From positions 1-64,000 of the forward strand of contig JAPNUX010000001.1 in assembly GCA_026626905.1 (NCBI GenBank): DNA of 64,000 nucleotides, written 5' to 3'. The notes beneath the pieces were generated by a model. That model was not told where the DNA came from and did not search any database. It saw only the letters and a list, made by a program, of their open reading frames with translations. Within the stretch, counting starts at the first letter, position 1. Each line of letters begins with the position of its first letter. Source of the DNA: Desulfurococcus sp. (lineage in GTDB: Archaea; Thermoproteota; Thermoprotei_A; Sulfolobales; Desulfurococcaceae). Shown one piece after another: positions 32,016 through 54,677 of the stretch. The position numbers were made by a program, and so were the translations under genes.

Positions 32016-33095
32016 ACGAATTATGTATAGATTTGCACTTTGTTTTAACATATTGTCATTTAAAGTAAGGCTACTAATCTCGTTGATGTAATCAGTCATA
32101 AATCGAGTTATAGGTATAAAGCTTTTTGCACAAGTTCTGATACTGCGAGGGGCTAATATTAGAGGGTAATATGGCCCTCTGTTATATGCGCACTCGATAT
32201 TTCTTTTCTTCTTAAGTAAATAATCCAGGTAAGCAATTAGTCCTCTGGTCGCATGCTTACTGGATGGAGGGGGCAGAGATATCGCTCTTGCGAGATATCT
32301 AAGAATGATCAATGGCTTCATAGAATGCAATACGCCTACATAATAATGATGAATATTTAACATTCTATTGCGAAATAGATAAATGTATGAAAAGTTGCTT
32401 AGATGGCCTTGTTTATGAAATCCTGCTACAACGGGGACGGATACTACTTTAAAACCGTGAGACCATAAGTATAAGCTTAGTTCGTCATCTTCAGCGTACA
32501 TAAAGTAATTTCTACAAAATAAGCTTTCTCTTAGCTTTAATACCTTATCCAGTTTTACTACCATGCATGCACCATTTGCTAGTGAAATATAGCTAGGTTC
32601 AGGTGGGCATTCATCAAGTTTCAGCCCCCCGCATCTTCTTATCACGTTGCCATGAATATCGATAAAAGCTCCTGCATCGAGTACACGCTCTCCTCCTTCG
32701 AGCGATAGGTTTATTCCCTGTGCTATAGCAAGATCTTCTCTTTCTATTATAACACGTAATATATCTTCTATTCCTTCAGGGTCAACAATGTAATCATCGT
32801 TCAGTATAATAACATACCTACAAGTTTGTTTAATTAATTTGCTAACCAAGGAGTGTGCTCCAGCGTAACCATAGTTATGCTTTAACTTAAAAATTTTTAT
32901 ATCATTACCAAATTCTTCTTCTATGCTTTGTATTGTTGAATCAGTTGAGTTATTATCAACTACTATGACCTTATCCACGCTTCTCGCGGATAAAATCGAG
33001 TTTATAGCTTTAAAGACAAGTGAGCCATGCCTACTTATACTGTTAAAAGTTAATATCAATGCACATGCTCTAGGAGGTTTTATTAAAGATGTCAT
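32010..33095 (-). CDS. Glycosyltransferase family 2
   Basis: A 361-residue GT-A enzyme: ALILTFNSISRHGSL and VVDNNSTDSTI, NYGYAGAHSL, LNDDYIVDPEG (DxD), GACMVV, and the acceptor/base motif YAEDDELSLYLW. The body is AT-rich like the three genes upstream of it. Its last codons (YIIRV, stop) run into the decayed WaaE-like remnant, whose frame continues after the same stop, so the C-terminus may have been replaced by recombination. It overlaps the upstream membrane-protein gene by four bases. Probably a sugar transferase for a surface polysaccharide or glycoprotein glycan. Confidence 0.85.
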   Translation of the reverse strand: MTSLIKPPRACALILTFNSISRHGSLVFKAINSILSARSVDKVIVVDNNSTDSTIQSIEEEFGNDIKIFKLKHNYGYAGAHSLVSKLIKQTCRYVIILNDDYIVDPEGIEDILRVIIEREDLAIAQGINLSLEGGERVLDAGAFIDIHGNVIRRCGGLKLDECPPEPSYISLANGACMVVKLDKVLKLRESLFCRNYFMYAEDDELSLYLWSHGFKVVSVPVVAGFHKQGHLSNFSYIYLFRNRMLNIHHYYVGVLHSMKPLIILRYLARAISLPPPSSKHATRGLIAYLDYLLKKKRNIECAYNRGPYYPLILAPRSIRTCAKSFIPITRFMTDYINEISSLTLNDNMLKQSANLYIIRV

Positions 33096-34768
33096 TTTCT
33101 CACAGAGATAAAAGAATATTTAGAGTTATATATAACGTTATATTCTATTGAATATTTTGCTAAGGCATTAGCTATATCAAATAATTGTCCTTCATATACG
33201 TAATACTTAGAGAATTTACTTATACTACTTATTACTACGAGATCAGAACTATCCTTTAATGAAAGATGTATTAGATAATTAGTTGCGGATAGGAGGCTAC
33301 TAAGAGGCAGGGAAGTATACGTGTCGATGTAGATATCGATATGGTAACATGAATAGCGTGTATGACTAAGTTTTTGGAGATAGGGCTCACCGAGAAATCT
33401 ATACGCAAAAATCGCCGTGGTATATATGTATTTGTTGGAATCATCGATATATCTTAAATCTCTGAGCTTAATAGCATCTATATCAGAGTTTCCCGAGAGT
33501 AAATTAGCAGGCCATAGGAATGTTGCAATCAGAGTAATGATCGAAATAATAAACGCTAAATATTTTGCAACGTTTCTATTCCTTATACTCTCGAATAACA
33601 GAGCAAATGCGATTGGTCCACCTAATATAAAGTTATACATCAAGACGCGGTCCGGATAAAGGCCTGCTCCCAGCCTCTTTATTACGAAGAACAATAGCGA
33701 AATCGCCAACGTAACAATGTTTAGTATTTTTATTAACAATATAGGACTTCTCGCATCGATGTTGTTGGTTGATTTTGAGGTTTTTCTTGTGTAAGGCTTT
33801 AAAAAACAAAAGAAGATGCTCATTATGTAAAGTGAGTATAGAATTGCCAGCAAGTATAAACGCGATGGTTGGATAGGAGCCATGATATGCTGAGGAAATG
33901 GATTACGAGAGGCCTCTTTCTCATCAAAAAGGGTCGATAGAGTATACACGGTTATCAATAGATAGTGGTCAAAACCGAAGGTAATATATCCATGAATTAA
34001 GAATGTACTAATAAACAACATGAATACTATGACGACTATTATTCTTAAGTAGCGTATGGTCTCCGCAATATTTTTTCTATTAGAGGCAACTATTTTGAAT
34101 ACTGTAAGTGCAAGAAATGATATAAAGAATATTAATACCAATAGTATCGCAGTCGCGATATGTATTAGTGGTAGAGATAATGTTGCCAAGAACAAAATAA
34201 CAAAAACTTTTCTTTCATTATTTAACAGACGAATCACTGCTAATAACATCATGGCTATAATGGGCGATACTAGCGAGAGAACAGTTTTCGTCACAAAAAG
34301 AGCGGGCAATGGACTGAAGAGAAGAGGAAGAATTACAGCAAGCGACGTATAGTTGTCCATAGTTCGTAATATGCTTCTGGTAGCCAAAAGGGTAATAATG
34401 GTTGTTTCCATGAATCCAATTATTTGAATAATATGTATACATGTAAGTGTAGTCAACGATGATAATCTCTCCAGAGCTACTACTGTAAATATAAGTCCTC
34501 CATAATAGAAATAGGAATGGAAATGAGATGCTGTCGTGTTCCATCGATAGTTAGAAAGCGTATATTTAATAACACCTATTTCTCCCCAAATATCTGACCC
34601 GAAGATCTCATAACGTAGATTAACAGCCATTATCCAGGATACAGATATAAGCAACAATGACCATGTTCTAAAGATTTTATTGCTACCTTTATGAGATAAA
34701 TTAACGATCAATAGGCCAATCACAAATATGAATATAACTAAAGGTATATTAATTGCCAGCATTTTCAA
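33092..34768 (-). CDS. Polytopic membrane protein, possible GT-C glycosyltransferase or polymerase
   Basis: A 558-residue protein with roughly a dozen predicted hydrophobic helices spread over residues 1-430 and a soluble C-terminal part of about 120 residues. The first extracellular loop contains GSDIWGEIG, an acidic motif like those of GT-C enzymes that use lipid-linked sugars. The C-terminal domain contains LYPDRVLMYNFILGG. It lies between two glycosyltransferases with four-base overlaps on both sides, so it is part of the same machine; lipid-linked sugar transfer or polymerisation is inferred. The gene is very AT-rich (one 60-base line near its 3' end has only 14 G or C). Confidence 0.6.
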   Translation of the reverse strand: MKMLAINIPLVIFIFVIGLLIVNLSHKGSNKIFRTWSLLLISVSWIMAVNLRYEIFGSDIWGEIGVIKYTLSNYRWNTTASHFHSYFYYGGLIFTVVALERLSSLTTLTCIHIIQIIGFMETTIITLLATRSILRTMDNYTSLAVILPLLFSPLPALFVTKTVLSLVSPIIAMMLLAVIRLLNNERKVFVILFLATLSLPLIHIATAILLVLIFFISFLALTVFKIVASNRKNIAETIRYLRIIVVIVFMLFISTFLIHGYITFGFDHYLLITVYTLSTLFDEKEASRNPFPQHIMAPIQPSRLYLLAILYSLYIMSIFFCFLKPYTRKTSKSTNNIDARSPILLIKILNIVTLAISLLFFVIKRLGAGLYPDRVLMYNFILGGPIAFALLFESIRNRNVAKYLAFIISIITLIATFLWPANLLSGNSDIDAIKLRDLRYIDDSNKYIYTTAIFAYRFLGEPYLQKLSHTRYSCYHIDIYIDTYTSLPLSSLLSATNYLIHLSLKDSSDLVVISSISKFSKYYVYEGQLFDIANALAKYSIEYNVIYNSKYSFISVRK

Positions 34769-36069
34769 GCCCCACTTCTTTTCAAATTCTTCAGGAGTTT
34801 AAAGTATACGTTTATATACTTCATCGAAATTAAATCACAATTTAGTGATTCTATAACTAATTTTCTCCGCAATTCTGAATACTTGGCGAAATAATCTAGT
34901 TTATGAATAAACTCTAACATGGCTTTGAAAAGCTCATCTGCAGTTGGAGAATCTATAACTATCCCAATATATCTGCGAAAATCCTGGGAGATCATAACTA
35001 CAGCAGGTAAGTACCTATAAGCAATAATAGGAACACCATAAGCAAGCGCCTCTACTAATGTCATCGAGAACCCCTCATAAGCAGATGGTATAACTACACA
35101 ATCAGCTGTTTTGTAAAGAAATTCAAGCATTTGCTCGGAGACATTGCCCCAAAATATGACATTTTCTATTAGACCTAATTTCAAGGCTAATTCTTTCATA
35201 TCACGTAGCAAAGGTCCACTACCTGCAATGATCAGTTTTATATTCTTCGGATGTGTATATGTAAATGTTTTTGATTCGTATCTCAAATATTTGATAAGTT
35301 TAGAGAAAGCAAATAGCAAATTGTCGATGTTTTTTTCTTTATCTATCCTGGAAACACAAAGAAATATCAATGACTTCTTATGTAAGACATCTCTACGATC
35401 TATTTCCTTGACCTTATGGACATTGGCATCTATTGCTACACAAGGAGGTATAATGGATGCTTTCTCTGCAATGTTCCATTTTTTCGCATATATAAAGGTT
35501 AATGGATTTGTGAACACCAAATAATCCAAGATATTACTACATAAACGTTGCACTACTTCATTTAAGAGAGATGTAAAGGTTCTCCTTTTTATAAGCCACA
35601 TAACAAGATCCCTTCCATGAGCAGTTGTTATAAACAATGGAATTTCACTATATCCGATTAATTTCATTAATAATTTAACTAACATAGCAGCTATAGCGAC
35701 ATCTGTTATATTATGAATATGAATTATATGAGGCTTAAATTTCACCAAGCTTTTTACTATTATTATAGTCCATACCGGTATTGATATTAAATATAAAATA
35801 TATGCTGGTAGAAGTTTAAATAACCTATATGGTATGGTCTTTACAGGCAGCACTAGTATGTTATACCTTCTCAAGCTTGCTCTTAAGATATCCTGGTTTA
35901 TCCTTTCTTCTTTGGGAATAACTAAAATGCATTCAAAACGCTTATCCTGACATATTCTACTGAGTATATTATATGTAAATTTTTCAACGCCCCCTATTCT
36001 AATTGGAAAAATACCATACTGGGATATCATTAGTAGCCTTATACTGTCTAACACTTTATTCGGGCTCAA
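34765..36069 (-). CDS. Glycosyltransferase family 4
   Basis: A 434-residue GT-B enzyme. The N-terminal acceptor domain has RIGGVEKFTYNILSRI and HIIHIHNITDVAIAAML; the C-terminal nucleotide-sugar domain has CVSRIDKEKNIDNLLFAF, LIIAGSGPLLRDM, the VIFWGNV segment, and the EX7E motif in SAYEGFSMTLVEALAYGVPIIA. It overlaps the membrane-protein gene by four bases and follows the phosphodiesterase-like gene by 22 bases. Codons are AT-rich. The sugar donor is not readable. Confidence 0.9.
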   Translation of the reverse strand: MSPNKVLDSIRLLMISQYGIFPIRIGGVEKFTYNILSRICQDKRFECILVIPKEERINQDILRASLRRYNILVLPVKTIPYRLFKLLPAYILYLISIPVWTIIIVKSLVKFKPHIIHIHNITDVAIAAMLVKLLMKLIGYSEIPLFITTAHGRDLVMWLIKRRTFTSLLNEVVQRLCSNILDYLVFTNPLTFIYAKKWNIAEKASIIPPCVAIDANVHKVKEIDRRDVLHKKSLIFLCVSRIDKEKNIDNLLFAFSKLIKYLRYESKTFTYTHPKNIKLIIAGSGPLLRDMKELALKLGLIENVIFWGNVSEQMLEFLYKTADCVVIPSAYEGFSMTLVEALAYGVPIIAYRYLPAVVMISQDFRRYIGIVIDSPTADELFKAMLEFIHKLDYFAKYSELRRKLVIESLNCDLISMKYINVYFKLLKNLKRSGA

Positions 36070-36091
36070 ATTACTTTCAGAAACAGCTTGA

Positions 36092-37189
36092 TTACGTTAC
36101 TCCGAGTACTTTCTTAACCTTAGTAGCTATATCATAGATGCTACTTGCCTGTTCAACGTTGCTTATGTAAGAGCCACAAACATGGTAGTTCAAACCTTTA
36201 CCGCTTTTACATATGTAGCCGTGCATACCACGTGGAACTTTCCATGGTATCGCCCTTGTGGGTAACCAGAAGCTAGGTAGTAAAATAATTCCAGGCTTAA
36301 GAACCAAGGCTTCATCCCCGAACTCCTTACTTGGGATAGGTACATCGTATATGTACGCATTTTCAGAATTAACTACATCTTGCAAATAGAAGTCTAATTT
36401 CTCGCGAAGAATCCTCCCTACTTCTCTCGCATTTCTGTTAAAATACCATAGTCTTACTAATGTGGATTCTATAGAGATCATATAATCAATTCCGAGTATA
36501 TAATCAATATTACTAATAATTTTAAGTATATCTATGGCTTTTACGACTGGAACCATTCCATGATCGGAGTATAGCAAAAAAGGTATATTTCTTTCATCAA
36601 GTTTTTTTAGAAGGGTGAGAATATTGCTTATTCTCTGCCTTATGTCGACTGTTAATCTGCCCCGCATGTGACCTAAAGTGTCAAGTTCACTGTATGTAAG
36701 GACAATCACATCGAAACCAGGCTTAAAGATAGCATTTACGATTTTTTCAATATCTTGAATTAAGGTTTTTACTATAATTATCTTAATTTTAAATCCGTGG
36801 TTTATGAGCTCGTCGATTAATGTTGGAAGTTTAGATTCATGCGGTCTTAGTGGATCGAATCTATCCTCAAAGGTAAAATATGGCGACAAATCTGGGGGAA
36901 GAACTGGTAAATACCTTTTACGGATCAGTTTTTCCAATGCCCACATTACAACCCATTTATTTATATTAATTTGCAACATTTTGCCAGGATACGTGTTCAG
37001 CTTCCATAATGTCCATATTCTCATTTTGTGTTGGCTATTTCCACTAAGTGCGACATAGTGTAGACCTGTACTAAAACCTAAAGGCGTGTACAGGGGATTA
37101 ACATAAAACTTCTTGTATAAATCCCTCTCCACGGTTAATAGTTGGATAAAGTCTAACGCATCAATGGAAAGTAGAACAAATGGCTTCAT
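36092..37189 (-). CDS. Alkaline-phosphatase-superfamily (type I phosphodiesterase-like) protein
   Basis: A 365-residue protein. LLSIDALDF at the N-terminus gives the first metal-binding Asp; YSELDTLGHM supplies the second Asp and His; LLYSDHGMVP supplies Asp-His; HGYICKSG near the C-terminus supplies the last His. These are the ordered motifs of nucleotide pyrophosphatase/phosphodiesterase-type enzymes. In surface-glycan loci such proteins may hydrolyse activated sugars or transfer phospho-groups. It overlaps the next gene upstream by four bases. The nucleophile Thr/Ser region after ALDF is not clear, so activity is uncertain. Confidence 0.72.
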   Translation of the reverse strand: MKPFVLLSIDALDFIQLLTVERDLYKKFYVNPLYTPLGFSTGLHYVALSGNSQHKMRIWTLWKLNTYPGKMLQININKWVVMWALEKLIRKRYLPVLPPDLSPYFTFEDRFDPLRPHESKLPTLIDELINHGFKIKIIIVKTLIQDIEKIVNAIFKPGFDVIVLTYSELDTLGHMRGRLTVDIRQRISNILTLLKKLDERNIPFLLYSDHGMVPVVKAIDILKIISNIDYILGIDYMISIESTLVRLWYFNRNAREVGRILREKLDFYLQDVVNSENAYIYDVPIPSKEFGDEALVLKPGIILLPSFWLPTRAIPWKVPRGMHGYICKSGKGLNYHVCGSYISNVEQASSIYDIATKVKKVLGVT

Positions 37190-38202
37190 TCAACTCGCCA
37201 ACGTAAATGTAATATCGGCTGGTAAAATGATTTCCAAACATTAACTATAGTCCTTAGCTCTCTAAGGGTATTTTTAAGCCTGTCTTTATCGGAATCCTGG
37301 TAAAGTATAAAATTATGCAATGTCACCAAGAGCTTAAGCCACAGTTCGACAAATGAATTTGTGGAAATTATATACTTAATGCCTAGAGGAAGAGCTAGAA
37401 GGTCGTCTAAATGATGAGAGTTGATACCACGTAGTATAAAACGTAATAGAATAATACTTTTCCTCTTTGGAATTGCAGCATCGATCTTTTGAAGTTTTAC
37501 TATAAGATCTTTAAAAATTCCATAATAATGATCTATCCAAGAGATCATTTCACGCAGTATCGTTGAATAATTAAATGAGTCTTTATGCACAAGATATCTT
37601 GCATTATTGATCTTCAATATGGCTTCTGGATTATCTACGAATTGAGCAAGGGACCTGGCTATTAGTATAATCTTGAATAAACTATATCCAGCTTCAACTT
37701 TATTGTTGTTGACAATAGAATCTGCGAATGAAAACAGCTTATTTATGATTAAACGAATAACTTCAACAGCCGGGACTGAAAACTCTTTAACCAGCATAAA
37801 CTTGGTAATATCCACGAAACCGTATACACGTTTACCATAGACCTTAAGGTCTAATGCTGACAAGCTTAAATCATCTACGAGTTCGCTGTAATGACACACT
37901 CCTATGGATACTGTTATATCAAGATTATACTTACTTAAACACTTTGAGAAATTATTTTTAAAAAATATTTCGAGAAGATATCTGTGAAACGCCTCTTTTA
38001 GATCTGTTACTACAAGCAAGTCTAAATCACTGATGCAATGCCCGCTAATACATAGTGCTTTTTCTCGTGCAAAGGAGCCTAGCATATAGATTGACAAAAT
38101 ATGAGTTCTTAACGAGGGTGATGCTCTGACAGCTTCTTCAACACAATGGTTGACAACGCCGGATATATTGTTATACGAAGCTGGGTCTTCGGGAATTTTC
38201 AT
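37186..38202 (-). CDS. Nucleotidyltransferase-domain protein
   Basis: A 338-residue protein with a pol-beta-type signature MLGSFAREKALC and SDLDLLVVTDL in its first 75 residues (GS, then DxD), followed by a long helical region. It overlaps the phosphodiesterase-like gene and follows a glycosyltransferase by 12 bases. Unlike the small MNT antitoxins in this window it is long and embedded in the glycan operon, so transfer of a nucleotide or phospho-group to a sugar or carrier is possible, but no substrate can be assigned. Confidence 0.6.
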   Translation of the reverse strand: MKIPEDPASYNNISGVVNHCVEEAVRASPSLRTHILSIYMLGSFAREKALCISGHCISDLDLLVVTDLKEAFHRYLLEIFFKNNFSKCLSKYNLDITVSIGVCHYSELVDDLSLSALDLKVYGKRVYGFVDITKFMLVKEFSVPAVEVIRLIINKLFSFADSIVNNNKVEAGYSLFKIILIARSLAQFVDNPEAILKINNARYLVHKDSFNYSTILREMISWIDHYYGIFKDLIVKLQKIDAAIPKRKSIILLRFILRGINSHHLDDLLALPLGIKYIISTNSFVELWLKLLVTLHNFILYQDSDKDRLKNTLRELRTIVNVWKSFYQPILHLRWRVE

Positions 38203-38214
38203 AGGCTCTGTCCT

Positions 38215-39492
38215 CTATTTGAGAGCTTCATAAAGCTTCATGATTTTATCAAGGATATTCTGGCAACTAAAGAAAGATGAGAGCTTGTTAAGCATTTTGA
38301 CAGTTTTTTCCTGGTAATTCCCATTTTGCACCTTAGAGTTAACTATTTCTTTCATGGCCTTAATTAAGCAAGTATGGTCTCCCGGAGCGCATATATACAG
38401 AAACGGATATAGCTTTGCGTATTCGATCAGTCCGCCAACATTGGTTATAATTATAGGTTTCTTATATAACATCGCCTCAAATGCAGTTAATCCAAACACC
38501 TCAGGCCACCGAGGAGCTAGTATAATGCCCTTCGCATTAGAATATAATTCGTTTAATTCTCCATCTGTTACTTCAGTTAATATTAAAATATCCTTTACGT
38601 TTGTTACCTTCTCGATCAAAGGCTTAAATTGTTTATCAATTGTTCCAGCCATGACTAACTTTATATTTGTACTATGATTTATTAAGTGGTTATACTTAAA
38701 AATTATAAAAGCCTTTATGAGATCATGAACACCCTTATGTAATGATATCTTTCCAACATATAATAGATATTCAGAGTTTTCAAGCCCATATCGTTTAAGA
38801 AGTTCATTAGTAGTTGACTGTGTTTTTGATTCAATTAGTGAAACACAATTTGGTATTATAATTATTTTACGTTCTAATTTATTAAGGTATCTTACATGTA
38901 CATTTTTAACATATTCGCTGGGCGATATAAAGATTGATGCTGCTCGCGTAAGTAGTTGTGCAAATAGTTTAAGGAGAATATATAGAATGGCAGCCTTAAA
39001 CCCGTATACCGCAATTCCGCACCTAAGACACCTTCTTATCGTTGGTTTTTTGCATACCATAAGTTTGCTTAGGTCGAACATATCTCGCTTTAAACATATA
39101 AAACCATAATCATGTAAATGCACTATTAATGGTATTCTTAGAATACTGGCTACAGGTAGTACTGTAATAGCTGATAATCCATGTGCGTGAATTATATCTG
39201 GTCTATGCTTCATTACAATTCGTAAAATATAGGCGAGAAACACGGGGTCTGGAAATGGTGGGGGGAGTTTCCTGCCAAAAAATGACGCTAGTGTACGTAT
39301 GCTTTTAGTTGCAACCCTGTATCTACTAATATATGCATTATCATAATAGCATATCATATGGACATCATAGCCTTTCTTAGACGATTCCTTGAAAAGTAAT
39401 CGTGTATATCTTGTAATACCACCAGGGCTTATGCACTGGTCCGTTACTAATAACACTCTAAATACGTTAAGTTTAGTTCTAGGGTTAATCAT
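38215..39492 (-). CDS. Glycosyltransferase family 4
   Basis: A 425-residue GT-B enzyme. ISPGGITRYTRLLFKE and PDIIHAHGLSAITVLP mark the N-terminal domain; YVGKISLHKGVHDLIKAF, LVMAGTID and RWPEVFGLTAFEAMLYKKPIII (EX7E) mark the donor domain. A Cys-rich segment (VCKKPTIRRCLRCG, about residue 145-160) resembles those of GT4 proteins that may bind a metal. It overlaps the upstream GT4 gene by four bases and marks the end of the AT-rich block. Confidence 0.9.
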   Translation of the reverse strand: MINPRTKLNVFRVLLVTDQCISPGGITRYTRLLFKESSKKGYDVHMICYYDNAYISRYRVATKSIRTLASFFGRKLPPPFPDPVFLAYILRIVMKHRPDIIHAHGLSAITVLPVASILRIPLIVHLHDYGFICLKRDMFDLSKLMVCKKPTIRRCLRCGIAVYGFKAAILYILLKLFAQLLTRAASIFISPSEYVKNVHVRYLNKLERKIIIIPNCVSLIESKTQSTTNELLKRYGLENSEYLLYVGKISLHKGVHDLIKAFIIFKYNHLINHSTNIKLVMAGTIDKQFKPLIEKVTNVKDILILTEVTDGELNELYSNAKGIILAPRWPEVFGLTAFEAMLYKKPIIITNVGGLIEYAKLYPFLYICAPGDHTCLIKAMKEIVNSKVQNGNYQEKTVKMLNKLSSFFSCQNILDKIMKLYEALK

Positions 39493-45460: not shown

Positions 45461-45736
45461 CTACTTGTCCTCTGCTGGTAGAATATTCTTGAGGAGGTTT
45501 AAGAGCTCGCTTAAAGCTTCATCTTCATCCTCACCATTAACCCTTAATACTATTTCATCACCGTAGTCTACTCCAAGTGAGAGAACCTGTAGAATATTCT
45601 TAGCACTCGCAGACTTCCCTCCCTTAACAACAATCACCTCTGATTTAAATCTCCGAGCAGTCTCCACGAATCTAGCAGCCGGCCTAGCATGCAGCCCACT
45701 CTTATTCACTACTGTAACTTTAACCTCACGCATCAT
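45461..45736 (-). CDS. ptsH: Phosphocarrier protein HPr
   Basis: A 91-residue protein of normal HPr length. VNKSGLHARPAARFVE holds the active-site His (residue 16 counting from 45736) that accepts phosphate from enzyme I. GGKSASAKNILQVLSLG is the second conserved region; the residue in the place of the regulatory Ser46 is Asn, so HPr-kinase control is unlikely. Two ATGs stand in tandem (45736, 45733); GGTGA fits the second slightly better. It is the last gene of the PTS operon, 50 bases after ptsI. Confidence 0.95.
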   Translation of the reverse strand: MMREVKVTVVNKSGLHARPAARFVETARRFKSEVIVVKGGKSASAKNILQVLSLGVDYGDEIVLRVNGEDEDEALSELLNLLKNILPAEDK

Positions 45737-45786
45737 CAGTCACCAGAGAGTGTTAAGTATTATGGCATAGCTTTAAGAATTATCCT

Positions 45787-47481
45787 CTACCACGGGATCT
45801 CTACACCAAGCTCTCTACTCAGGAATCCTCTAGCCTTCTCTCTAACCTCGCCGCCATTATCTAGTTTTAATGCTTCTTCAGCTAGCTTCACGCTACTAGT
45901 ATACTCGATCCCGTTGACCACCCATTTAACTAGTGGTATTAGCGCTGGCGAGACACTAAGCTCGTCTACACCAAGGCCTACAAGTATTGGTATAGCTAGC
46001 GGGTTTCCGGCTAGCTCACCGCACACATGGACTGGGATACCTGCTCTATGAGCCTCCCTCGATACTACTTCTATAGCTCTAAGTACAGCTGGATGCATGT
46101 CATCGTAGAGGTATGATACATTCTCGTTAACTCTATCAGCTGCAAAAATATACTGGGTTAAATCATTAGTACCTATACTGAGGAAGTCTACTTCTCTAGC
46201 AATCTTATCAGCCATGTAGACTACTGAGGGAACCTCCACCATGATGCCGAAGTCGACTCTAACATTAAGCTCTCTCGACGCTTCCTCTATAATTTTCTTT
46301 AGCTCTCTAACTTCTTCTAGAGTACTCACCATTGGAGCCATAACCTTAATATTACTATGCCTGGATGCAGCCTTGAAGACAGCTTTCAACTGGTCTTCAA
46401 GAACCCCTCTATACTTGAATAGTAGTCTAATACCTCTAAGCCCTAGAAACGGGTTACTCTCTCTTGGAGCCGGCATGTAGGGTAGTGGTTTATCCCCGCC
46501 TACATCAAGTAGCCTGATAACCAGTGGCTTACCCTCAAGCTTCTCAGCCATTCTAGCGAAGACTTCAGCAAGCTTTTCAACAGGGGGAGGACTACTCGCT
46601 CCTAGATAGTAGAATTCAACTCTGAATAATCCTACTCCTTCAGCACCATTCATTAAAGCAGTATTCAAGTCGTCTTCACCCCCGATATTCGCTGCTACAG
46701 TAATTCTTCTTCCATCTCTCGTTGAAGCCAGTTTACCTTTAACTTCCATGAACTTCTTGGATAGCTCGTCGAAAGCCTGTTTTCTAGCCATCAGCTTTCT
46801 CAATGTATCCTCGCCTGGGTCAGCTATTACAAGCCCTGTAAACCCGTCTACTACTACAAGGCTCGCAGTACTCAGTGATCTCACTGCATCTCTAACACCG
46901 AATACAGCTGGAACCCCGAGGCTTCTAGCTATTATTGCTGCATGCGAAGTATAACTACCCTTCTCAGCTATAACAGCCTTTAAGCCCCTTCTAGCAAGCC
47001 TTAAGAGCTGGGATGGGTAGACCTCCACGGCAACTAGTACTGAGCCTTCTCCAATATTAACCCCGCCTGCTCCCCTCAGTAATCCAGCCAGGCTATCTCT
47101 TATCTCAATCAAGTCTTCTACTTTAAGCTGAGTTAAAGCTGCACCAGACGACTCTAAGAGCTCCTTGTACTTCTCGAAGACTACTGCAAGAGCTTCAAGA
47201 GCACTCCTCCCTCCTCTAACCTCTCCTACAGCCTCATCCACCAGGGCTTCAACCATAAGCTTGTGGGCTTCAAGTATCTCAGCTACATCCCTCGGTGCAT
47301 CCTTCTTAAGCTCGTCGAGCTCAGCTAGCAGCTTACTCTTAGCTTCAAGTAGAGCACGCTCAGCTTCAACACCCTTATAGTCTACTCCCTCCCCTAGACT
47401 TACAGTTAAGCTTACAGGTCTACCGTAGCCTACACCCCAGGATACCGGGATCCCTTTAAGCCTCCTCTCCACGAACCCCAC
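45787..47481 (-). CDS. ptsI: Phosphoenolpyruvate-protein phosphotransferase (enzyme I)
   Basis: A 564-residue enzyme I of usual length. The N-terminal HPr-binding domain is followed by the phospho-His domain with GSYTSHAAIIARSLGVPAVF (His180), and the C-terminal PEP-binding barrel has GVGLFRVEFYYLG, RLLDVGGDKPLPYM, NPFLGLRGIRLL, DFLSIGTNDLTQYIFAADR and the catalytic Cys in VHVCGELAGNP. It takes phosphate from PEP and passes it to HPr. The start lies seven bases after nagA, consistent with one transcript. Confidence 0.96.
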   Translation of the reverse strand: MGFVERRLKGIPVSWGVGYGRPVSLTVSLGEGVDYKGVEAERALLEAKSKLLAELDELKKDAPRDVAEILEAHKLMVEALVDEAVGEVRGGRSALEALAVVFEKYKELLESSGAALTQLKVEDLIEIRDSLAGLLRGAGGVNIGEGSVLVAVEVYPSQLLRLARRGLKAVIAEKGSYTSHAAIIARSLGVPAVFGVRDAVRSLSTASLVVVDGFTGLVIADPGEDTLRKLMARKQAFDELSKKFMEVKGKLASTRDGRRITVAANIGGEDDLNTALMNGAEGVGLFRVEFYYLGASSPPPVEKLAEVFARMAEKLEGKPLVIRLLDVGGDKPLPYMPAPRESNPFLGLRGIRLLFKYRGVLEDQLKAVFKAASRHSNIKVMAPMVSTLEEVRELKKIIEEASRELNVRVDFGIMVEVPSVVYMADKIAREVDFLSIGTNDLTQYIFAADRVNENVSYLYDDMHPAVLRAIEVVSREAHRAGIPVHVCGELAGNPLAIPILVGLGVDELSVSPALIPLVKWVVNGIEYTSSVKLAEEALKLDNGGEVREKARGFLSRELGVEIPW

Positions 47482-47488
47482 CAGCCTA

Positions 47489-48655
47489 CTATAGTACTCT
47501 CACGCCTTGAACATACAGGGATTCAACATTCAAGTCTTCATCTAATACTACCAGGTCAGCTGAGAAGCCGGGTATAATTGCACCAGTATTACGTAGCCCT
47601 ACAGCTGAAGCAGGATTATAGGTTAGCATTCTCACAGCATCCTTCAACGGGACTCCTAGCTTAACTAGGTTTCTCAAAGCTTTATCCATTGTGAGAGTAC
47701 TCCCTGCGAGTGTTCCATCCTTCAGCCTGCTAACACCACCTTCAACAATAATCTCTAAGCCTCCAAGCGTGTACCTTCCATCCGGGAGGTCTGTAGCTGC
47801 AATAGAGTCTGTGACAGCTACAATCCTCTCCACACCAGCATGTCTTATCGTGAACTCAATCATCCTGGGCGAGACGTGTATGAAGTCGCATATAAGCTCC
47901 AAGTATACTTGAGGGCTCTCTAAGAGTGCGACTATAACACCAGGCTCTCTATGGTGCACTGGCCTCATCCCATTATAGAGGTGTGTAGCCCTATTAGCTC
48001 CAGCTATTATAGCTGCCTTAGCCTCCTCGAATGACGCGTTAGTATGACCTATTGAAACGTAAACCCCGAGGCTTCTAGCATACTCTATGAACTCTAATGC
48101 TCCTTCAAGCTCAGGGGCAATTGTTATAGTTTTCAAGCTACCCTTAGATGCCTCCCAGTACTCTCTCAGCTCACTAATACTCGGGGGCCGAAGAAACTCG
48201 GGGTTCTGGGCTCCAGCTCTCTCCCTGCTTAAGTATGGTCCCTCTAAGTGTAATCCTTCAACTAAAGCTCCTTCAATCCTACTCCTCTGGGATTCGATAA
48301 ATCTAGCAACACCTCTAGCAGCTGTGAGAAGGGTTTCACGGGATGCTGTCACAGTAGTAGGGAGGAATCTAGCCACGCCGTGAGTAGCGTAGGCTCTACT
48401 CAACTCTGCTAGCGTCTCCTCTACTCTCTCAACCAAGCCTTCTAGAGCACTATTCGTGATATCATACCCTTTAATCCCATGAGTGTGTATATCAATAAAG
48501 CCTGGTGCTAGTATCCTACCCTCAAGGTTCTCGCCGCCGGGATTCCTCCCAGCGTAGACTCTCCTAACTACTCCTCCTTCTACTTCAACTGTCCCAGGAT
48601 AGATCTCCTCGAATGGTGTTACAACTCTAGCATTAGTTAAAACTAGCTTGCTCAT
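47489..48655 (-). CDS. nagA: N-acetylglucosamine-6-phosphate deacetylase
   Basis: About 388 residues of the NagA amidohydrolase family. GFIDIHTHG (His57, His59), LEGPYLS (metal-binding Glu), SIGHTNAS, THLYNGMRPVHHREPG, and the catalytic Asp in VAVTDSIAATDLPDG are all present, with GSTLTMDKALRNLV and AVGL near the end. It removes acetyl from GlcNAc-6-phosphate. ATG 48655 is chosen over 48700 because the longer form would overlap the SIS gene. It lies inside the PTS operon, so the imported and phosphorylated sugar is probably N-acetylated. Confidence 0.94.
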   Translation of the reverse strand: MSKLVLTNARVVTPFEEIYPGTVEVEGGVVRRVYAGRNPGGENLEGRILAPGFIDIHTHGIKGYDITNSALEGLVERVEETLAELSRAYATHGVARFLPTTVTASRETLLTAARGVARFIESQRSRIEGALVEGLHLEGPYLSRERAGAQNPEFLRPPSISELREYWEASKGSLKTITIAPELEGALEFIEYARSLGVYVSIGHTNASFEEAKAAIIAGANRATHLYNGMRPVHHREPGVIVALLESPQVYLELICDFIHVSPRMIEFTIRHAGVERIVAVTDSIAATDLPDGRYTLGGLEIIVEGGVSRLKDGTLAGSTLTMDKALRNLVKLGVPLKDAVRMLTYNPASAVGLRNTGAIIPGFSADLVVLDEDLNVESLYVQGVRVL

Positions 48656-48665
48656 CCCAGCCCGC

Positions 48666-49400
48666 CTACAGGTATCTAAGTCTATCTCTGTATCTCTCAA
48701 CTACCCTAATATTATGCTCCTGGGCGCCGGGTAGATGCGAGCTCATGAATACAGGTGGCTCAACTCCTCTCTCAGCAAGCTTCCCTACAGCTAGTGCCGT
48801 GATAGCGTGAGCTATAAAAGCTGAGAGTATCGTGGAGACAGGGAACACTTTTACCTTGAGGCCAGGCACCTCTAGTACTGCATCTCCTCGAGGAACCTTA
48901 TTGTCTACAACAACATCAGCAACCTCGTAGAGCCTCCTACCATACTTGTTTCTAGGGGGCAGGCTCTTCGAGTACTCGACTGAAGTCACAGCTATTACAG
49001 GACACCCCATGGATCTAGCTTTCAAGGCAGCCTCCACTGGGAACGTGTTAACCCCTGAATTCGAGACTACTAGAACTACATCTCCTTCTCTAACACCCAT
49101 GTGCTTTAAGACTACTTCAGCATACCCTTCAACATGCTCCATGCTAGTAGACTTGAATGCACCGTGATACACGTTTATATCAGTGTTAACCAGTGGGTTT
49201 ACGGGGACTAGTCCTCCAGCCCTATAAGAGAGCTCTTCTCCAATTATTGCTGAATGCCCTGCTCCAACCACGTGGAGTACTCCGCCTCTTTCAAGGGAGC
49301 TGGCTAGAAGCTCCGCGGCTCTCTCAATACTCTCCTTCTCCTCCTCTACAATCCTCTTAATTAGAGAGGAGACTGTAAGGTATAGTTCCTCTAGTATCAT
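48666..49400 (-). CDS. SIS-domain phosphosugar-binding protein (UPF0309-like)
   Basis: A 244-residue single-SIS protein: GVLHVVGAGHSAIIGEEL (phosphosugar loop) and GDVVLVVSNSGVNTFPVEAAL (SIS SxSG motif), then a C-terminal SSHLPGAQEHN segment. SIS proteins isomerise, deaminate or sense amino-sugar phosphates. It lies between the EIIA gene and nagA, ten bases from nagA. No separate GlcN-6-phosphate deaminase gene is in the window, so this protein may perform that step or a related isomerisation; that is inference. Confidence 0.85.
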   Translation of the reverse strand: MILEELYLTVSSLIKRIVEEEKESIERAAELLASSLERGGVLHVVGAGHSAIIGEELSYRAGGLVPVNPLVNTDINVYHGAFKSTSMEHVEGYAEVVLKHMGVREGDVVLVVSNSGVNTFPVEAALKARSMGCPVIAVTSVEYSKSLPPRNKYGRRLYEVADVVVDNKVPRGDAVLEVPGLKVKVFPVSTILSAFIAHAITALAVGKLAERGVEPPVFMSSHLPGAQEHNIRVVERYRDRLRYL

Positions 49401-49468
49401 GCAAGCCCACCAGTAGGCTCACACGCGTGACAAGGCGGCTTACACCCTATAAAATAGCAGAGTTCACG

Positions 49469-49924
49469 CTACCCGCTTACATCCCGAGGCGTGAAGCATT
49501 CTACTACAGCTAGAATATCACGGGGGTCTCTAGCAGACATTAATGCTGAGCGGGCTTCCTCGTTGGACAGTAGCTCTGCGATCACTTGGAGGGCTTGTAG
49601 ATGAGACTTCTTGTCGGGTGAAGCGAAAGCTATAACTACTTTAACCGGGTCGTTAGGAGACCCGAAGTTAACAGGCTTTCTCAAGACAACAATACTGAAG
49701 CCAGGCTTCAAAGCACCATCCTCAGGTCTTGCGTGTGGTAGTGCTACACCTGGAGCTATAACAGCGTAGGGGCCTAGCTCTCTAACAGTATTAATCATGG
49801 CGTCAATATACTTCTCCTCAATCCTCCCCCTCTTATACAGGATTCCCCCGGCTACTCGGACAGCCTCCTCCCAGCCTCCGACTTCAACATCTACAAGTAT
49901 ATCTTCTAGCGTCAGCCAGTCCAC
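49469..49924 (-). CDS. PTS EIIA component (mannitol/fructose/ascorbate type)
   Basis: A 151-residue PTS_EIIA_2 domain. The phosphorylated His is in VALPHARPEDG (His64), and the second conserved His is in DKKSHLQALQVIAELL. PVNFGSPNDPVKVVIAF lies between them. It takes phosphate from HPr and passes it to EIIB. Its ATG 49924 is 26 bases after the EIIB stop. A complete single-domain protein, as in ascorbate-family systems with separate subunits. Confidence 0.93.
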   Translation of the reverse strand: MDWLTLEDILVDVEVGGWEEAVRVAGGILYKRGRIEEKYIDAMINTVRELGPYAVIAPGVALPHARPEDGALKPGFSIVVLRKPVNFGSPNDPVKVVIAFASPDKKSHLQALQVIAELLSNEEARSALMSARDPRDILAVVECFTPRDVSG

Positions 49925-49950
49925 GGAACCCCACCGCTTAAACCCTTAGC

Positions 49951-50262
49951 CTACAATGCAATAATGCCTTTTTCTAGGAGTGCCTGGAGGAGTTTCTCTC
50001 TAATCTCCTTCTTATCCACCAGGTTCTTCAACCCGACAACTATTTTCCCTGAGCCTTTAAGCTCGCTTACGTGGAGAACTGAGGCTACTATGACATCAGC
50101 ATCACTACTCTTAGCACTAACTAGCTCTGAGTGCTCTACTTTAGCAGGTATCTTCAGCTCTCTCAACACATCTTCTACAAACATCCTCATGATCAGTGAG
50201 CTACCCTGTCCTACCCCGCATACAGTTAAAACCTTGAGAGGCCTGTTCAACAAGTACTTCAC
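49951..50262 (-). CDS. PTS EIIB component (ascorbate-family type)
   Basis: A 103-residue PTS_IIB domain with the phospho-Cys loop VLTVCGVGQGSSLIM (Cys15) at the N-terminus, then DVIVASVLHVSEL. The length and motif match UlaB/SgaB-like subunits. It receives phosphate from EIIA and donates it to the sugar bound in EIIC. It lies 65 bases after the EIIC gene. Confidence 0.92.
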   Translation of the reverse strand: MKYLLNRPLKVLTVCGVGQGSSLIMRMFVEDVLRELKIPAKVEHSELVSAKSSDADVIVASVLHVSELKGSGKIVVGLKNLVDKKEIREKLLQALLEKGIIAL

Positions 50263-50327
50263 GAGGAACCACCAGCTAAATCATATGGATTAGGGAACTA
50301 AAAAACAATATTATAGGGTTCCCGCAG

Positions 50328-51638
50328 CTACGAGCCGAAGATAGGCTTTAAGATCAACATTAGTATTAACACTATTGCATACCAGTCTGGGTCTCCTAGT
50401 GTAGCCAGCTCAGGCCCGTACGTTAAGACCTTTAATCCTAGAGCCTGCCCTATTGCTAGTATAAAGCCATTTAATGCTCCAGCGAATACAGCTCCCTTCC
50501 ACCCGCCAGTCTTATTCCCGAAGACAGCTGCAGCACCACCAGGGAAGAACAGCATTATCATTGGTGGAACTATTACTGAGAAGCCAGTCCACATGAATAC
50601 AGCCATCATCACTAGGAATACTATGAGGCCGCTGATGAAGCCGATGATAACAGCTGTAGGAGCGTAGGGGAAGACTACCGGGCAGTCTACTGCTGGTATA
50701 GCTCCCGGAATCACTTTTTCAGATATACCCTTGAACGCTGGGATTATCTCGCCAACAAATATTTTTACTCCTGTGAGCAGGACGACTATGGCTGCAGCAA
50801 AGTATAATCCTCTTATTATAGCCCATACTATAGGGTTCAAGCCTCCCGTTAACCCTGCCACAGTCTCCGGAGCCTTGAATAAGCCTATGATTGACGCGAT
50901 AACCATTATCAACCCTAGAATTATCGCAGTGCTAATAGAGTAGTCCTTGAAGAACGATATAGATTCAGGTATCTTCAACTCCTCAGTACTCTCCTCGGGT
51001 CTACCAATATACTTTCCAACCTTGAATCCTATCCACGCGACTAGAGAAGATGTATGCGCGTAGCCTATCTCCTCTGAACCTGTTAGAGTCTTCATAGCAC
51101 CATGCATGTACTTAGGCTGTATTGTCCAGTATAACGCCATTACAATAGAGCCTATTAAGACAACCTGCCACATAGATGCCTTGGGGTTCACTGTTAGAAT
51201 AGTTGCAACAACTAGCAGTGAAACCCACCACATTAAATGCCCTGTTAAGTAGACGTGGCGGAATACAGGTATAAGCCTCACGATTATTAAGTGGAGAATG
51301 AATCCGAGAGTCATTACTGTGACAGCATAGCTACCGTAGGTACTTATCAGCGTGTTCATAGGCACGTAGTTAGGTGGGTACTGCGGGGATGCACCGGTTG
51401 CAGCATACACGATGTTCTGGAAGTTCACGAGCTCGTTGACGAATAAGCCTGCTCCAGCCAGCATTAAGACTACTCCAATCATGACTTTAATAGTCCCGCT
51501 TACAATCTCATTGAACGGCTTCTTCTGGAGGGATAGGCCGATTAAGGCTACTAGGCCTAGGAGTATAGCTGGATTCTGAAGGATATTTGTTCCAATCCAT
51601 ATGATAATGTCTTCAATAGTCACATTTAACCCCCACAT
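50328..51638 (-). CDS. PTS EIIC component, ascorbate (UlaA/SgaT) family
   Basis: A 436-residue transporter with ten or more hydrophobic helices. The order is typical of the UlaA/SgaT family: GLSLQKKPFNEIVSGTIKV at the start, GSYAVTVMTLGFILHLIIVRL, GHLMWWVSLLVVA, the YAHTSSLVAWIGFKVGK segment, then FVGEIIPAFKGISEKVIPGA and DCPVVFPYAPTAVIIGF. It carries sugar across the membrane as it is phosphorylated by EIIB. It is first in the operon; TATA-like stretches lie at 51653-51668. ATG 51638 would be nearly leaderless; GTG 51623 with GGGGG six bases before it is the alternative. Confidence 0.93.
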   Translation of the reverse strand: MWGLNVTIEDIIIWIGTNILQNPAILLGLVALIGLSLQKKPFNEIVSGTIKVMIGVVLMLAGAGLFVNELVNFQNIVYAATGASPQYPPNYVPMNTLISTYGSYAVTVMTLGFILHLIIVRLIPVFRHVYLTGHLMWWVSLLVVATILTVNPKASMWQVVLIGSIVMALYWTIQPKYMHGAMKTLTGSEEIGYAHTSSLVAWIGFKVGKYIGRPEESTEELKIPESISFFKDYSISTAIILGLIMVIASIIGLFKAPETVAGLTGGLNPIVWAIIRGLYFAAAIVVLLTGVKIFVGEIIPAFKGISEKVIPGAIPAVDCPVVFPYAPTAVIIGFISGLIVFLVMMAVFMWTGFSVIVPPMIMLFFPGGAAAVFGNKTGGWKGAVFAGALNGFILAIGQALGLKVLTYGPELATLGDPDWYAIVLILMLILKPIFGS

Positions 51639-51742: not shown

Positions 51743-52624
51743 CTAGCCTCCCATGCTCTCAGCTTTTAAGCTGTGGTTGCCGTGGCTTCGAGCTGCTTTA
51801 ACTCTAAAGTTCTCGAGGAGGTGGCCTGGTATAGAGCAGCATGCATCGTAGAGCTCGGAGTCCTCGTTGAGTAGGCTGGGGTGTGGGTTAGCTACTCTCT
51901 CAACTAATCCTTCTCTAACAGCCACTGTATCCAGCTCTCTTTTAACTCCATGAGGCCTCATGCATCCAAGATATAATCTTCCATTAAACACTCTTCTAGC
52001 CTCCCTCAAGTTCTCTACTAGAATAGATGCCGGCGGCTCTCCTACTAGCTTTGATTCAGGTATGTATACTAGGAGTGTAGCTTCCTCCAGCCCGTAGTCT
52101 TCCACAGTCTTCAACTCCTTCTTGAAGACCTCTATCGTGAAGCCTGGATGCCACAGGTAGAGGTGGGGGACTACGTGTAATCCTTCTTCAACCATTAGCT
52201 CTAATACCTCACTGTACACTGAGGTATTGAAGGGTAGCCCTCTAATGTACTTTGCGATGTAATCGCTTAGCGTGAACTCGTAGTCTACAACATCGACTAC
52301 TTCTCTAAGCCTCCCTAGTACCTCTCTACTCCTCTGGAGCCCGGGGTGAATGTTGAAGACGAAGCCATACCTCCTCTTAGCTTCTCTTAAAGACTCAATA
52401 AATTCTTCTACAGGTAGCACTCCGCTCCTAGTGAAACCACCACTCACTAGTACTCCTCTAACCCCCTGCTCGTAGAGTTCTCCTAGTACTTCAAGAACTC
52501 TCTCCCTTGGCAGGGGAGTCATGTGCCTGAGATACCTGCCCCTGCAGAACCTGCAGTTAAGCCAGCAAGCTGAGCCTGTTATAGATACTGAGGTGAACTT
52601 TACAGCATGGATAAAGTACTTCAA
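51743..52624 (-). CDS. Radical SAM protein, LipS-type lipoyl synthase component
   Basis: A 293-residue radical SAM enzyme. The cluster motif is in SACWLNCRFCRGRYL (C-x3-C-x2-C), followed by VLVSGGFTRSGVLP as the SAM-binding GGE-like element, and DACCSIPGHLLENFR near the end offers further Cys ligands. It overlaps a second radical SAM gene by four bases. In archaea two such proteins, LipS1 and LipS2, together insert sulfur into octanoyl groups. Their position beside a split lipoate ligase makes this assignment convincing; which one is LipS1 or LipS2 I leave open. Confidence 0.75.
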   Translation of the reverse strand: MKYFIHAVKFTSVSITGSACWLNCRFCRGRYLRHMTPLPRERVLEVLGELYEQGVRGVLVSGGFTRSGVLPVEEFIESLREAKRRYGFVFNIHPGLQRSREVLGRLREVVDVVDYEFTLSDYIAKYIRGLPFNTSVYSEVLELMVEEGLHVVPHLYLWHPGFTIEVFKKELKTVEDYGLEEATLLVYIPESKLVGEPPASILVENLREARRVFNGRLYLGCMRPHGVKRELDTVAVREGLVERVANPHPSLLNEDSELYDACCSIPGHLLENFRVKAARSHGNHSLKAESMGG

Positions 52625-53550
52625 GCTCTAACACCTATACTCTCAAGCTCCTCTCTCACCCTCCCCCACTGCTCTCTCAGGAGGCTTAGAGAAGGATAGT
52701 TGTATATGGAGCTAGGGAGCTCAGTGTAGAATGGTCTATTGCATCCAGGGCAGCCGCGGGTCTGGAGGTCTCTATAGAAGTCTACTCTCGGCTTCCTCCT
52801 GAATCTATGTGAGTCTACATCAATGTACTCCAGCGGGTTCTCACCGCTCTCAAGTAGTTCAACCGCGATCTGGAGGATCCTGTAGTATCCTTTATCAATA
52901 CTCCTCCTGGAAGCTGGATCAAAGTAGTTGAATAGTGCTACACGGGCTCCAGTAGAGTATATTTTCACTAGTGTTTCAAGAGCCTCCTTCAAGCTCTCCC
53001 CTAGCCCTGCTATCACGTGCACGTAGACGTTGCCCCTCCCAAACACTCTGACACCACTCTCAATAAACCTCCAGTACAAGCTCCAAGTGTACGGTTTACC
53101 CCACTTCACGAATAACTCTTCTGTCAGAGTATCCAAGCCTACTCCCAGCGTGTCAACTCCCAGCCTCTTAAACTCCTCTAGGATGCCTGCGGGGACAGGG
53201 GTTATAGCAAGAGATAGAGGCCTGCTTGAAACACCTCTAATAGCTCTCACGAACTCCACGGCCTCCTCAATAAACTTCTCCTTGATTACTGTCTGAAAGC
53301 ATATTCTCTCGAATACATCCCTCCACGCTGCTAGTACTTCACTCAACTCAACACTCGGCCACACCATCTTACCCAGCCAGTCACCCTTGAAGAACCTCCA
53401 TGATTGAGTGCAGTAGAGGCAGCCTCCCAGGCATCCTGTCTTAGAGTACTGGAGGAAGTATGCTGTGAAAGGCTCCTCCATGCTTTTAACAGATTGAAGG
53501 CCTAGCTTAGCGAGAGTACCTATCGAGGCCCTGATAAGCATATACTCCAC
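52621..53550 (-). CDS. Radical SAM protein, LipS-type lipoyl synthase component (partner)
   Basis: A 309-residue radical SAM enzyme. SKTGCLGGCLYCTQSWRF is the C-x3-C-x2-C motif, LSLAITPVP and LGVGLDTLTEELFVKWG follow, and TRGCPGCNRPFYTELP near the C-terminus supplies the Cys pair of an auxiliary cluster. It starts at 53550, back to back with the lipoate ligase gene at 53592, so a divergent promoter lies in about 40 bases. Together with the next gene it probably makes lipoyl from octanoyl groups on the ligase products. Confidence 0.78.
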   Translation of the reverse strand: MEYMLIRASIGTLAKLGLQSVKSMEEPFTAYFLQYSKTGCLGGCLYCTQSWRFFKGDWLGKMVWPSVELSEVLAAWRDVFERICFQTVIKEKFIEEAVEFVRAIRGVSSRPLSLAITPVPAGILEEFKRLGVDTLGVGLDTLTEELFVKWGKPYTWSLYWRFIESGVRVFGRGNVYVHVIAGLGESLKEALETLVKIYSTGARVALFNYFDPASRRSIDKGYYRILQIAVELLESGENPLEYIDVDSHRFRRKPRVDFYRDLQTRGCPGCNRPFYTELPSSIYNYPSLSLLREQWGRVREELESIGVRA

Positions 53551-53591
53551 CAGTACTATAACAGTTTTATAGTGGTGGAGGCTATTAACAC

Positions 53592-54371
53592 GTGGATCAG
53601 GGGCTTCAAGCCTTGAAGCTTAGAGTCATAGTTGACACTGAAGGCTCAAGCGCGTACTGGAATATGGGTATGGATGAAGCAGTCTTAAACCTCAGGGTAG
53701 AGGGTAGAGTACCAGATACTCTTAGACTCTACGTTTTCAAGCCTTCAGCTGCCACCATAGGCTACTTCCAGAAGATTAGTGAATCCGTGGATGTAGACTA
53801 CGCTACCTCACACGGCATTGATGTGACGAGGAGGATTAGCGGGGGCGGCTCAGTCTACCATGATTCAAACGGCGAGGTAACATACAGTGTAGTCCTCCCA
53901 GCTACAGGAGTACTAAGTGATGTCGCAGAAAGCTACAGGATTATATGTGGTGGGATAGTAGAAGCTATAAGAATTCTAGGCGGCGAAGCATCCTTCATGC
54001 CAGTCAACGATGTAGTAGTAAAAGGAAGAAAGATATCTGGTAGCGCGCAGGCACGCCGAAAAGGATTTCTACTACAGCACGGGACGCTAATGTACGCTAC
54101 AGACCTCGATGAAGCTGCTAGAGTTCTCAGAGCACCTAGAGTAAAGCTTGAAGCTAAAGGAGTCTCAAGTATAAGGGAGAGAGTTATAACGCTCAGAGAA
54201 GCTCTCTCCAGGGATGTAGGTAGAGAGGAGGTTGTAGAAGCACTACTCAAAGGCTTCACTAGAGCCTTAAACGCTGAGGTATACTTCGACGAGTACAGTG
54301 AGGATGAGTTAAAGCTAGCTGAAGAACTCTCAGCTAAGTATAAGAGTAGAGAGTGGATTTACAAGAGGTGA
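53592..54371 (+). CDS. lplA: Lipoate/octanoate-protein ligase, catalytic subunit
   Basis: A 259-residue ligase of the LplA N-terminal type. YWNMGMDEAVL and RRISGGGSVYHDSNGEVTYS are the substrate-binding motifs, and VKGRKISGSAQARRKGFLLQ with HGTLMY carries the catalytic Lys. It lacks the C-terminal accessory domain, which is encoded by the next gene. GTG 53592 is near-leaderless after ttttatag; TTG 53616 would start just before the first strand and is an alternative. The pair activates lipoate or octanoate and loads it on acceptor proteins. Confidence 0.9.
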   Translation: MDQGLQALKLRVIVDTEGSSAYWNMGMDEAVLNLRVEGRVPDTLRLYVFKPSAATIGYFQKISESVDVDYATSHGIDVTRRISGGGSVYHDSNGEVTYSVVLPATGVLSDVAESYRIICGGIVEAIRILGGEASFMPVNDVVVKGRKISGSAQARRKGFLLQHGTLMYATDLDEAARVLRAPRVKLEAKGVSSIRERVITLREALSRDVGREEVVEALLKGFTRALNAEVYFDEYSEDELKLAEELSAKYKSREWIYKR

Positions 54372-54380
54372 GGTAGAGTA

Positions 54381-54677
54381 TTGAAGGCTAGGAGGACTAT
54401 TAGAGAAGAGAAGACTCTTGATGTTGAAGTAGAAGTTGAAGGAGGAGTCATAAAGCACGTGGAGATCTCAGGGGACTTCTTCGCCTACCCTAGTGAAGCA
54501 GTCGAAGAACTCGAGGAGGCTTTAAAAGGCTGCGGGAGCGTAGACTGCATTAACAGCGTCTTCGAGAAGCTGAGAGGAGTACTTCTAGTAGGCGTTAAAC
54601 TAGGCTCCCTGAGAGAAGCTGTTATCAGTGTATTCACGTCACTTACCAGTGAATCCTATCCCGGGGAGTCGAAGTAG
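54381..54677 (+). CDS. lplB: Lipoate-protein ligase accessory (C-terminal domain) subunit
   Basis: A 98-residue protein matching the separate C-terminal domain of archaeal lipoate ligases (KTLDVEVEVEGGVIKHVEIS, GDFFAYP, later LGSLREAV). It starts with TTG nine bases after lplA, so the two subunits are co-made. It is needed for lipoate activation in the bipartite archaeal enzyme. Its last 22 bases overlap the end of the convergent gene at 54656. Confidence 0.88.
   Translation: MKARRTIREEKTLDVEVEVEGGVIKHVEISGDFFAYPSEAVEELEEALKGCGSVDCINSVFEKLRGVLLVGVKLGSLREAVISVFTSLTSESYPGESK

Follow-up and report, generated by a model that had tools for sequence, protein, structure and literature searches.

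A phosphotransferase operon of a Desulfurococcus species and its possible role in N-acetylmuramic acid uptake

Which sugar does the phosphoenolpyruvate (PEP)-dependent phosphotransferase system (PTS) of a hyperthermophilic crenarchaeon take up, and how is that sugar then processed? We examined this question for a seven-gene operon of a Desulfurococcus sp., located at positions 45,461 to 51,638 of a 64,000-nucleotide stretch of its genome (the window), which encodes a complete PTS together with a SIS-domain protein and the N-acetylglucosamine-6-phosphate deacetylase NagA. Our analysis leans slightly towards the operon being a self-contained PTS pathway that takes up N-acetylmuramic acid (MurNAc), or a small fragment containing MurNAc, derived from bacterial cell walls. 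Along this route, phosphate would pass from PEP through enzyme I (EI), HPr and the enzyme II (EII) components EIIA and EIIB by standard PTS chemistry, as their intact residues suggest, and the UlaA-type EIIC would import the sugar, presumably MurNAc, as its 6-phosphate. The SIS protein, a member of the UPF0309/NagS family, would then split D-lactate off C3, through C2-C3 elimination followed by rehydration, to yield N-acetylglucosamine (GlcNAc) 6-phosphate. It would thereby take the place of MurQ although it is not a MurQ itself, a role suggested by its co-occurrence with other genes and by the chemistry of NagS. NagA would deacetylate GlcNAc-6-phosphate, the function of its family, and a GlmS paralogue with a dead glutaminase site (Gly1-GlmS), encoded elsewhere in the genome, would convert glucosamine-6-phosphate (GlcN-6-phosphate) to fructose-6-phosphate.

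A crenarchaeal PTS is in itself no novelty: that of Thermofilum pendens likewise belongs to a hyperthermophile of this group (PMC2678158), and the system is also known in Haloarcula (PMC2405797). What is new is the reading of substrate and pathway. In the literature searched, we found no SIS role or substrate proposed for the T. pendens system, no instance of an UlaA-type EII combined with a UPF0309 candidate etherase, NagA and Gly1-GlmS, no paper naming UPF0309, COG4821 or PRK02947, and nothing on point about archaeal AnmK.

The operon and its phosphotransfer proteins

The operon is composed of the following genes:

50328..51638, minus strand: EIIC of the UlaA/GAT type, 436 amino acids; keeps UlaA H135, H194 and D314, not Q139, Q195, M410 and T86
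49951..50262, minus strand: EIIB of the ascorbate type, GTG start; phospho-Cys in VCGVGQGSS
49469..49924, minus strand: EIIA of the mannitol/fructose/ascorbate class, GTG start; phospho-His in LPHARP
48666..49400, minus strand: SIS protein of the UPF0309/COG4821/NagS family, 244 amino acids; H49, R60, E88 and D173 correspond to NagS H53, R64, E94 and D179; proposed MurNAc-6-phosphate etherase
47489..48655, minus strand: NagA, N-acetylglucosamine-6-phosphate deacetylase, 388 amino acids, ATG start at 48655; assigned by a curated model
45787..47481, minus strand: PTS enzyme I, GTG start; phospho-His180 and PEP-binding residues kept
45461..45736, minus strand: HPr; phospho-His in GLHARPAA, Asn at the regulatory Ser46 position

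All seven open reading frames (ORFs) are whole and run in one direction, separated in order from EIIC to HPr by 65, 26, 68, 10, 7 and 50 bases, which agrees with the complete, closely packed operon of the preliminary description. At the level of sequence families, the assignment of each of the seven proteins is secure. HPr, EIIA, EIIB and EIIC matched the profiles PTS-HPr (5e-29), PTS_EIIA_2 (1e-32), PTS_IIB (4e-11) and EIIC-GAT (1e-100), respectively, and EI scored 434.7 bits against PTS_I_fam (cut-off 341.7). The phosphorylation sites of EI, HPr, EIIA and EIIB that had been pointed out earlier are all there; EI His180 aligns to E. coli His189, and R296, R332, E431, D455 and R465 are also kept. 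Since HPr has Asn where bacteria have Ser46, control of the HPr-kinase type would not be expected.

NagA scored 300.9 bits against the TIGR00221 nagA model (cut-off 225.7), and its motifs HLEGP, GHT, THLYN and TDS align to those of solved NagA. Its natural start is the ATG at 48655; a longer ORF from 48700 would overlap the SIS gene. A Gln in place of His (AGAQNP) was considered as a sign of a different substrate and dropped, because the NagA of B. subtilis (2vhl) also carries Gln there.

Family and genomic partners of the SIS protein

The SIS protein scored 295.5 bits against PRK02947/UPF0309 (cut-off 135; COG4821), and its relatives in the PDB are S. coelicolor NagS (4e-48) and B. halodurans BH3325 (6e-46). 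Its structure model (pLDDT 87.6) matched, in order, NagS (TM 0.91, 38% identity), BH3325 and MurQ of H. influenzae, with GmhA close behind. H53, R64, E94 and D179, the essential residues of NagS (PMC12680351), are all retained. Against the MurQ model TIGR00274, the protein reached only 24.9 bits (cut-off 302), and a comparison of the SIS family with the MurQ profile gave a 43-column match at 16% probability, so sequence-only homology between the two was not used. Judged by these profiles, the protein is best filed in the UPF0309/NagS family, not as MurQ.

NagS dehydrates GlcNAc-6-phosphate to a 2,3-dehydro sugar through a C2-C3 elimination (PMC12680351). The reaction by which MurQ breaks the C3 ether of MurNAc-6-phosphate is an elimination of this kind, which suggests a mechanistic link. 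The genomes are divided between MurQ and the SIS family. In the order, 13 of 214 genomes encode AnmK and 39 have the SIS family above its cut-off, including 13 of the 13 AnmK genomes (Fisher p = 4e-11), and MurQ was found in 0 of the 214. A sample of 250 genomes from across the phylum contains 18 with AnmK; MurQ accompanies it in 13, and the SIS family is present in 0 of these 13. Four AnmK genomes without MurQ have the SIS family (G257, G294, G349 and G354 in our numbering), and one (G247), a 90% complete metagenome-assembled genome (MAG) whose congeners have MurQ, has neither. With two AnmK fragments left out, the genomes with intact AnmK divide into 16 with the SIS family only, 12 with MurQ only, 0 with both and 1 with neither (p = 2.5e-7); as the genomes are related, these genome-level p-values are too small, and the count by families, 5 with SIS against 6 with MurQ (p = 0.002), is the safer one. 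Such a division would be expected if two different families performed one and the same function. Because the SIS family accompanies AnmK and excludes MurQ, MurNAc is a better candidate than plain GlcNAc.

The neighborhoods of the SIS genes are consistent with this. Within 6 kb of 44 SIS loci, we observed NagA at 27, PTS genes at 13, an AmiE/PBP4B-like hydrolase at 9, and AnmK, GH84 and GlmS-like genes at 7 each. In addition to an EIIC of the window type and a SIS gene, two contigs of Desulfurococcales MAGs (L009 and L003) hold AnmK, GH84, NagA, a GlmS-like gene and a hydrolase of the beta-lactamase fold whose nearest family is PBP4B; EI, HPr and EIIA are also present in L009, so that PTS, Gly1-GlmS, NagA, AnmK, AmiE-like, SIS and GH84 genes share one stretch. 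In E. coli, yfeW/PBP4B follows murQ-murP, and PBP4B is the best family for the AmiE-like gene of the relatives. Archaeal MurQ has partners of the same kind, a NagK-like kinase and AmiE-like genes. Across the order and phylum, the SIS family thus keeps MurQ-type company (AnmK, PBP4B/AmiE-like, NagA and PTS genes), of which the window operon has NagA and the PTS only.

MurNAc catabolism by a PTS is known in bacteria. Like the murR-murQ-murP-yfeW system of E. coli, the proposed route would comprise PTS uptake as a 6-phosphate, a SIS-fold enzyme and NagA afterwards, with a PBP4B-like neighbor in relatives. It differs from the E. coli system in having an EIIC of the UlaA/GAT type in place of MurP, a SIS protein distinct from MurQ, and a GlmS paralogue instead of NagB as candidate deaminase.

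This paralogue is frequent in the SIS and NagA clusters of relatives. The Desulfurococcus copy lies on another contig (G000:C3 96257-98089, L048 2258-4090), with VGGIFA replacing MCGI. It lacks the Cys1 nucleophile of glutamine-dependent GlmS, and Cys1 to Gly and Asn98 to Asp replacements are found in 11 of 11 copies compared (10 from relatives and L048), which means that glutamine would not be usable as nitrogen donor by the usual mechanism. The isomerase site, in contrast, is kept entire, the residues checked being those of canonical archaeal GlmS, and the canonical GlmS of the same genome (L049) retains both Cys1 and Asn98. Gly1-GlmS, for which GlmS and GlmD/NagB-II are the closest known systems, could be a GlcN-6-phosphate deaminase, in which case the SIS protein need not be one. 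Because clusters of relatives hold SIS, NagA and a separate candidate deaminase of the GlmS/GlmD type, it is more probable that the SIS protein precedes NagA in the pathway. The C1G and N98D subfamily of GlmS is present in at least 11 archaeal genomes.

More tentatively, and with somewhat less confidence than we would need to favor it, we suggest that archaea of several families may use cell-wall MurNAc, with the UPF0309/COG4821 SIS protein as a second, non-orthologous MurNAc-6-phosphate etherase, a reversed GlmS without the glutaminase Cys as deaminase, and, in this lineage, an UlaA-type PTS in place of MurP. If true, this would give a function to a large SIS family annotated only as sugar isomerase domain protein, would explain the many AnmK-bearing archaea without MurQ, and would mean that hyperthermophilic archaea scavenge bacterial peptidoglycan. 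It would also suggest that NagS of Streptomyces descends from an etherase-type enzyme turned to GlcNAc-6-phosphate itself.

Canonical MurQ stands beside a BadF/NagK-like kinase at L189-L197, in genomes of the phylum outside the order, as classical archaeal MurNAc-type clusters. A second recurring SIS context, at L107, L119, L126, L204, L213 and L215, consists of different combinations of a GFO/IDH/MocA oxidoreductase, an AP_endonuc_2 TIM barrel and a ceramidase-like protein. Two AnmK genomes hold an outlying SIS-family pair on a very long branch (L135 7915-8709 and L218 from 8586), of which the L135 member is without the usual RAGG motif.

Competing readings of the substrate and the SIS step

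PTS specificity is the weakest link of the MurNAc reading. The EIIC scored 446.1 bits against the ascorbate model NF006919 (cut-off 380), is homologous to UlaA over its full length and matched solved UlaA (4rp8) at 1e-54, which upholds its earlier placement as UlaA-like. Ascorbate-type models are best or near best for EIIC, EIIB and EIIA, which are homologous to E. coli UlaABC (~30%, 40% and 36% identity) and keep the active-site His and Asp. Even so, an ascorbate PTS with NagA and the SIS protein as unrelated passengers is very improbable. Aligned to the residues that hold ascorbate in UlaA (PMC6048161), the EIIC keeps His135, His194, Asp314, Tyr87, Ile358 and Phe362, but Gln139, Gln195, Met410 and Thr86 are replaced by Trp, Thr, Asp and Asn. 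Thr86 alone is not essential, as shown by Pasteurella UlaA; the other three swaps are common to all archaeal EIICs of this type and that of Thermoflexus. With four contacts replaced, ascorbate appears unlikely as the substrate. The operon, moreover, is without ulaD-G or any other ascorbate-6-phosphate catabolic gene, holds its own EI and HPr unlike the E. coli system, and belongs to an order in which 10 of 12 HPr genomes also have the SIS family (p = 7e-7). The lost contacts and the complete NagA favor an N-acetyl amino sugar over ascorbate, as had been proposed. A second archaeal EIIC type, ~33% identical to the window EIIC and with other pocket residues, occurs beside SIS, NagA or EIIA at L042, L106, L188 and L206.

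If the sugar is N-acetylated, the SIS step may still be read in other ways. The protein shares family, fold and essential residues with S. coelicolor NagS (SCO4393, PDB 9eol), and 6P-chromogen I is a substrate of NagA in Streptomyces (PMC12680351), so that a NagS-like dehydratase might convert GlcNAc-6-phosphate to 6P-chromogen I for deacetylation by NagA. We regard this as improbable for all the 38% identity of the structural match: NagS is a GlcNAc-6-phosphate dehydratase limited to Streptomycetaceae, and homologues outside that family, at 26-36% identity, showed no or negligible activity of this kind (PMC12680351). In the window protein, NagS S91 and N228 are Thr and His, and NagS serves a toxicity pathway whose product, toxic in Streptomyces, would make little sense for an uptake operon. 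The route first proposed for this locus, in which GlcNAc would enter as its 6-phosphate and be deacetylated by NagA before the SIS protein converted GlcN-6-phosphate as a deaminase or isomerase, is unlikely in that form. SIS domains do occur in GlcN-6-phosphate deaminases, and NagA commonly adjoins SIS genes (27 of the 44 loci); NagA is needed for MurNAc too, however, and does not separate the two routes. The SIS protein belongs to the NagS/UPF0309 family rather than to NagB-II/GlmD or AgaS, candidate deaminases of the GlmS or GlmD type stand in the same clusters and, in Desulfurococcus, elsewhere in the genome, and the exclusivity of MurQ and SIS in AnmK genomes would be left unexplained. The SIS protein is thus probably not a glucosamine-6-phosphate isomerase or deaminase; the complete PTS and the N-acetyl amino sugar of that proposal hold, its SIS step probably does not, and MurNAc is favored over plain GlcNAc.

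Apart from the relatedness of the genomes, several observations weigh against MurNAc. AnmK and HPr do not co-occur (1 genome, p = 0.54), and the Desulfurococcus genome is without AnmK and shows no further MurNAc gene so far, AmiE-like and GH84 genes having been searched for in the window only. That it is also without a BadF-type kinase speaks for the MurNAc reading instead, as no candidate other than the PTS was then found that could phosphorylate the SIS substrate. The column of MurQ Glu83, which like Glu114 is catalytic, is an invariant Arg in the SIS family, and no clear register was obtained for Glu114, so any etherase activity would use a different residue set; we know of no activity for any archaeal UPF0309/NagS member. 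In the 11-row clade of the window SIS protein (support 100/99), the sole AnmK-linked row is L097. The genes around the nearest rows, L107 and L119, are instead GFO/IDH/MocA, AP_endonuc_2 (a TIM-barrel isomerase-like protein) and ceramidase-like genes, so that members of this clade could have another substrate. These rows, along with L126, lend some weight to a reading in which the operon imports another N-acetylated amino sugar, one that bears an acidic group or a substituent at C3, on which the SIS protein carries out a C2-C3 elimination, the use of MurNAc being confined to relatives with AnmK; NagS N228 is His in the clade, and two distinct EIIC types accompany SIS. We nevertheless consider this reading rather doubtful, as the AnmK-AmiE-SIS-NagA cluster of L097 falls in the same clade with the same His, the extra genes are all missing from the window operon, and the L009 EIIC, from a MurNAc-type cluster, is 63% identical to the window EIIC with the same pocket residues.

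Genomic setting of the operon

The Desulfurococcus genome (1.27 Mb, 99.9% complete) contains no second EIIA_2 and no second HPr beyond the operon copies, and genome searches found no EIIC, HPr or SIS family in either of its two congeners. Next to the operon, the window holds LipS1 and LipS2, a two-part lipoyl synthase, with a lipoate-ligase-like gene (LplA) and a small conserved gene (51743-54677), and both congeners show synteny over this block, from LipS1 past LplA. Synteny stops at LipS1, precisely where the operon starts, and since the congeners are without the operon, it was gained or lost within the genus. Close relatives of the EIIC are scattered over Thermococcus sp. JdFR-02 (75%), Desulfurococcales MAGs, Thermofilum sp. 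NZ13, Baldrarchaeota and the bacterium Thermoflexus, a distribution consistent with horizontal transfer.

In one relative (L005 1610-2899, G029:C24), the EIIC gene is broken by one in-frame TAA and the neighboring PTS, SIS and NagA genes are whole, indicating either a decaying gene or an assembly error. On the other side of the window operon, a stretch at 32000-39000 has a GC content of 0.33-0.36 against ~0.46 around it and lies close to glycosyltransferase genes that extend up to 45304; it may be an acquired glycosylation island.

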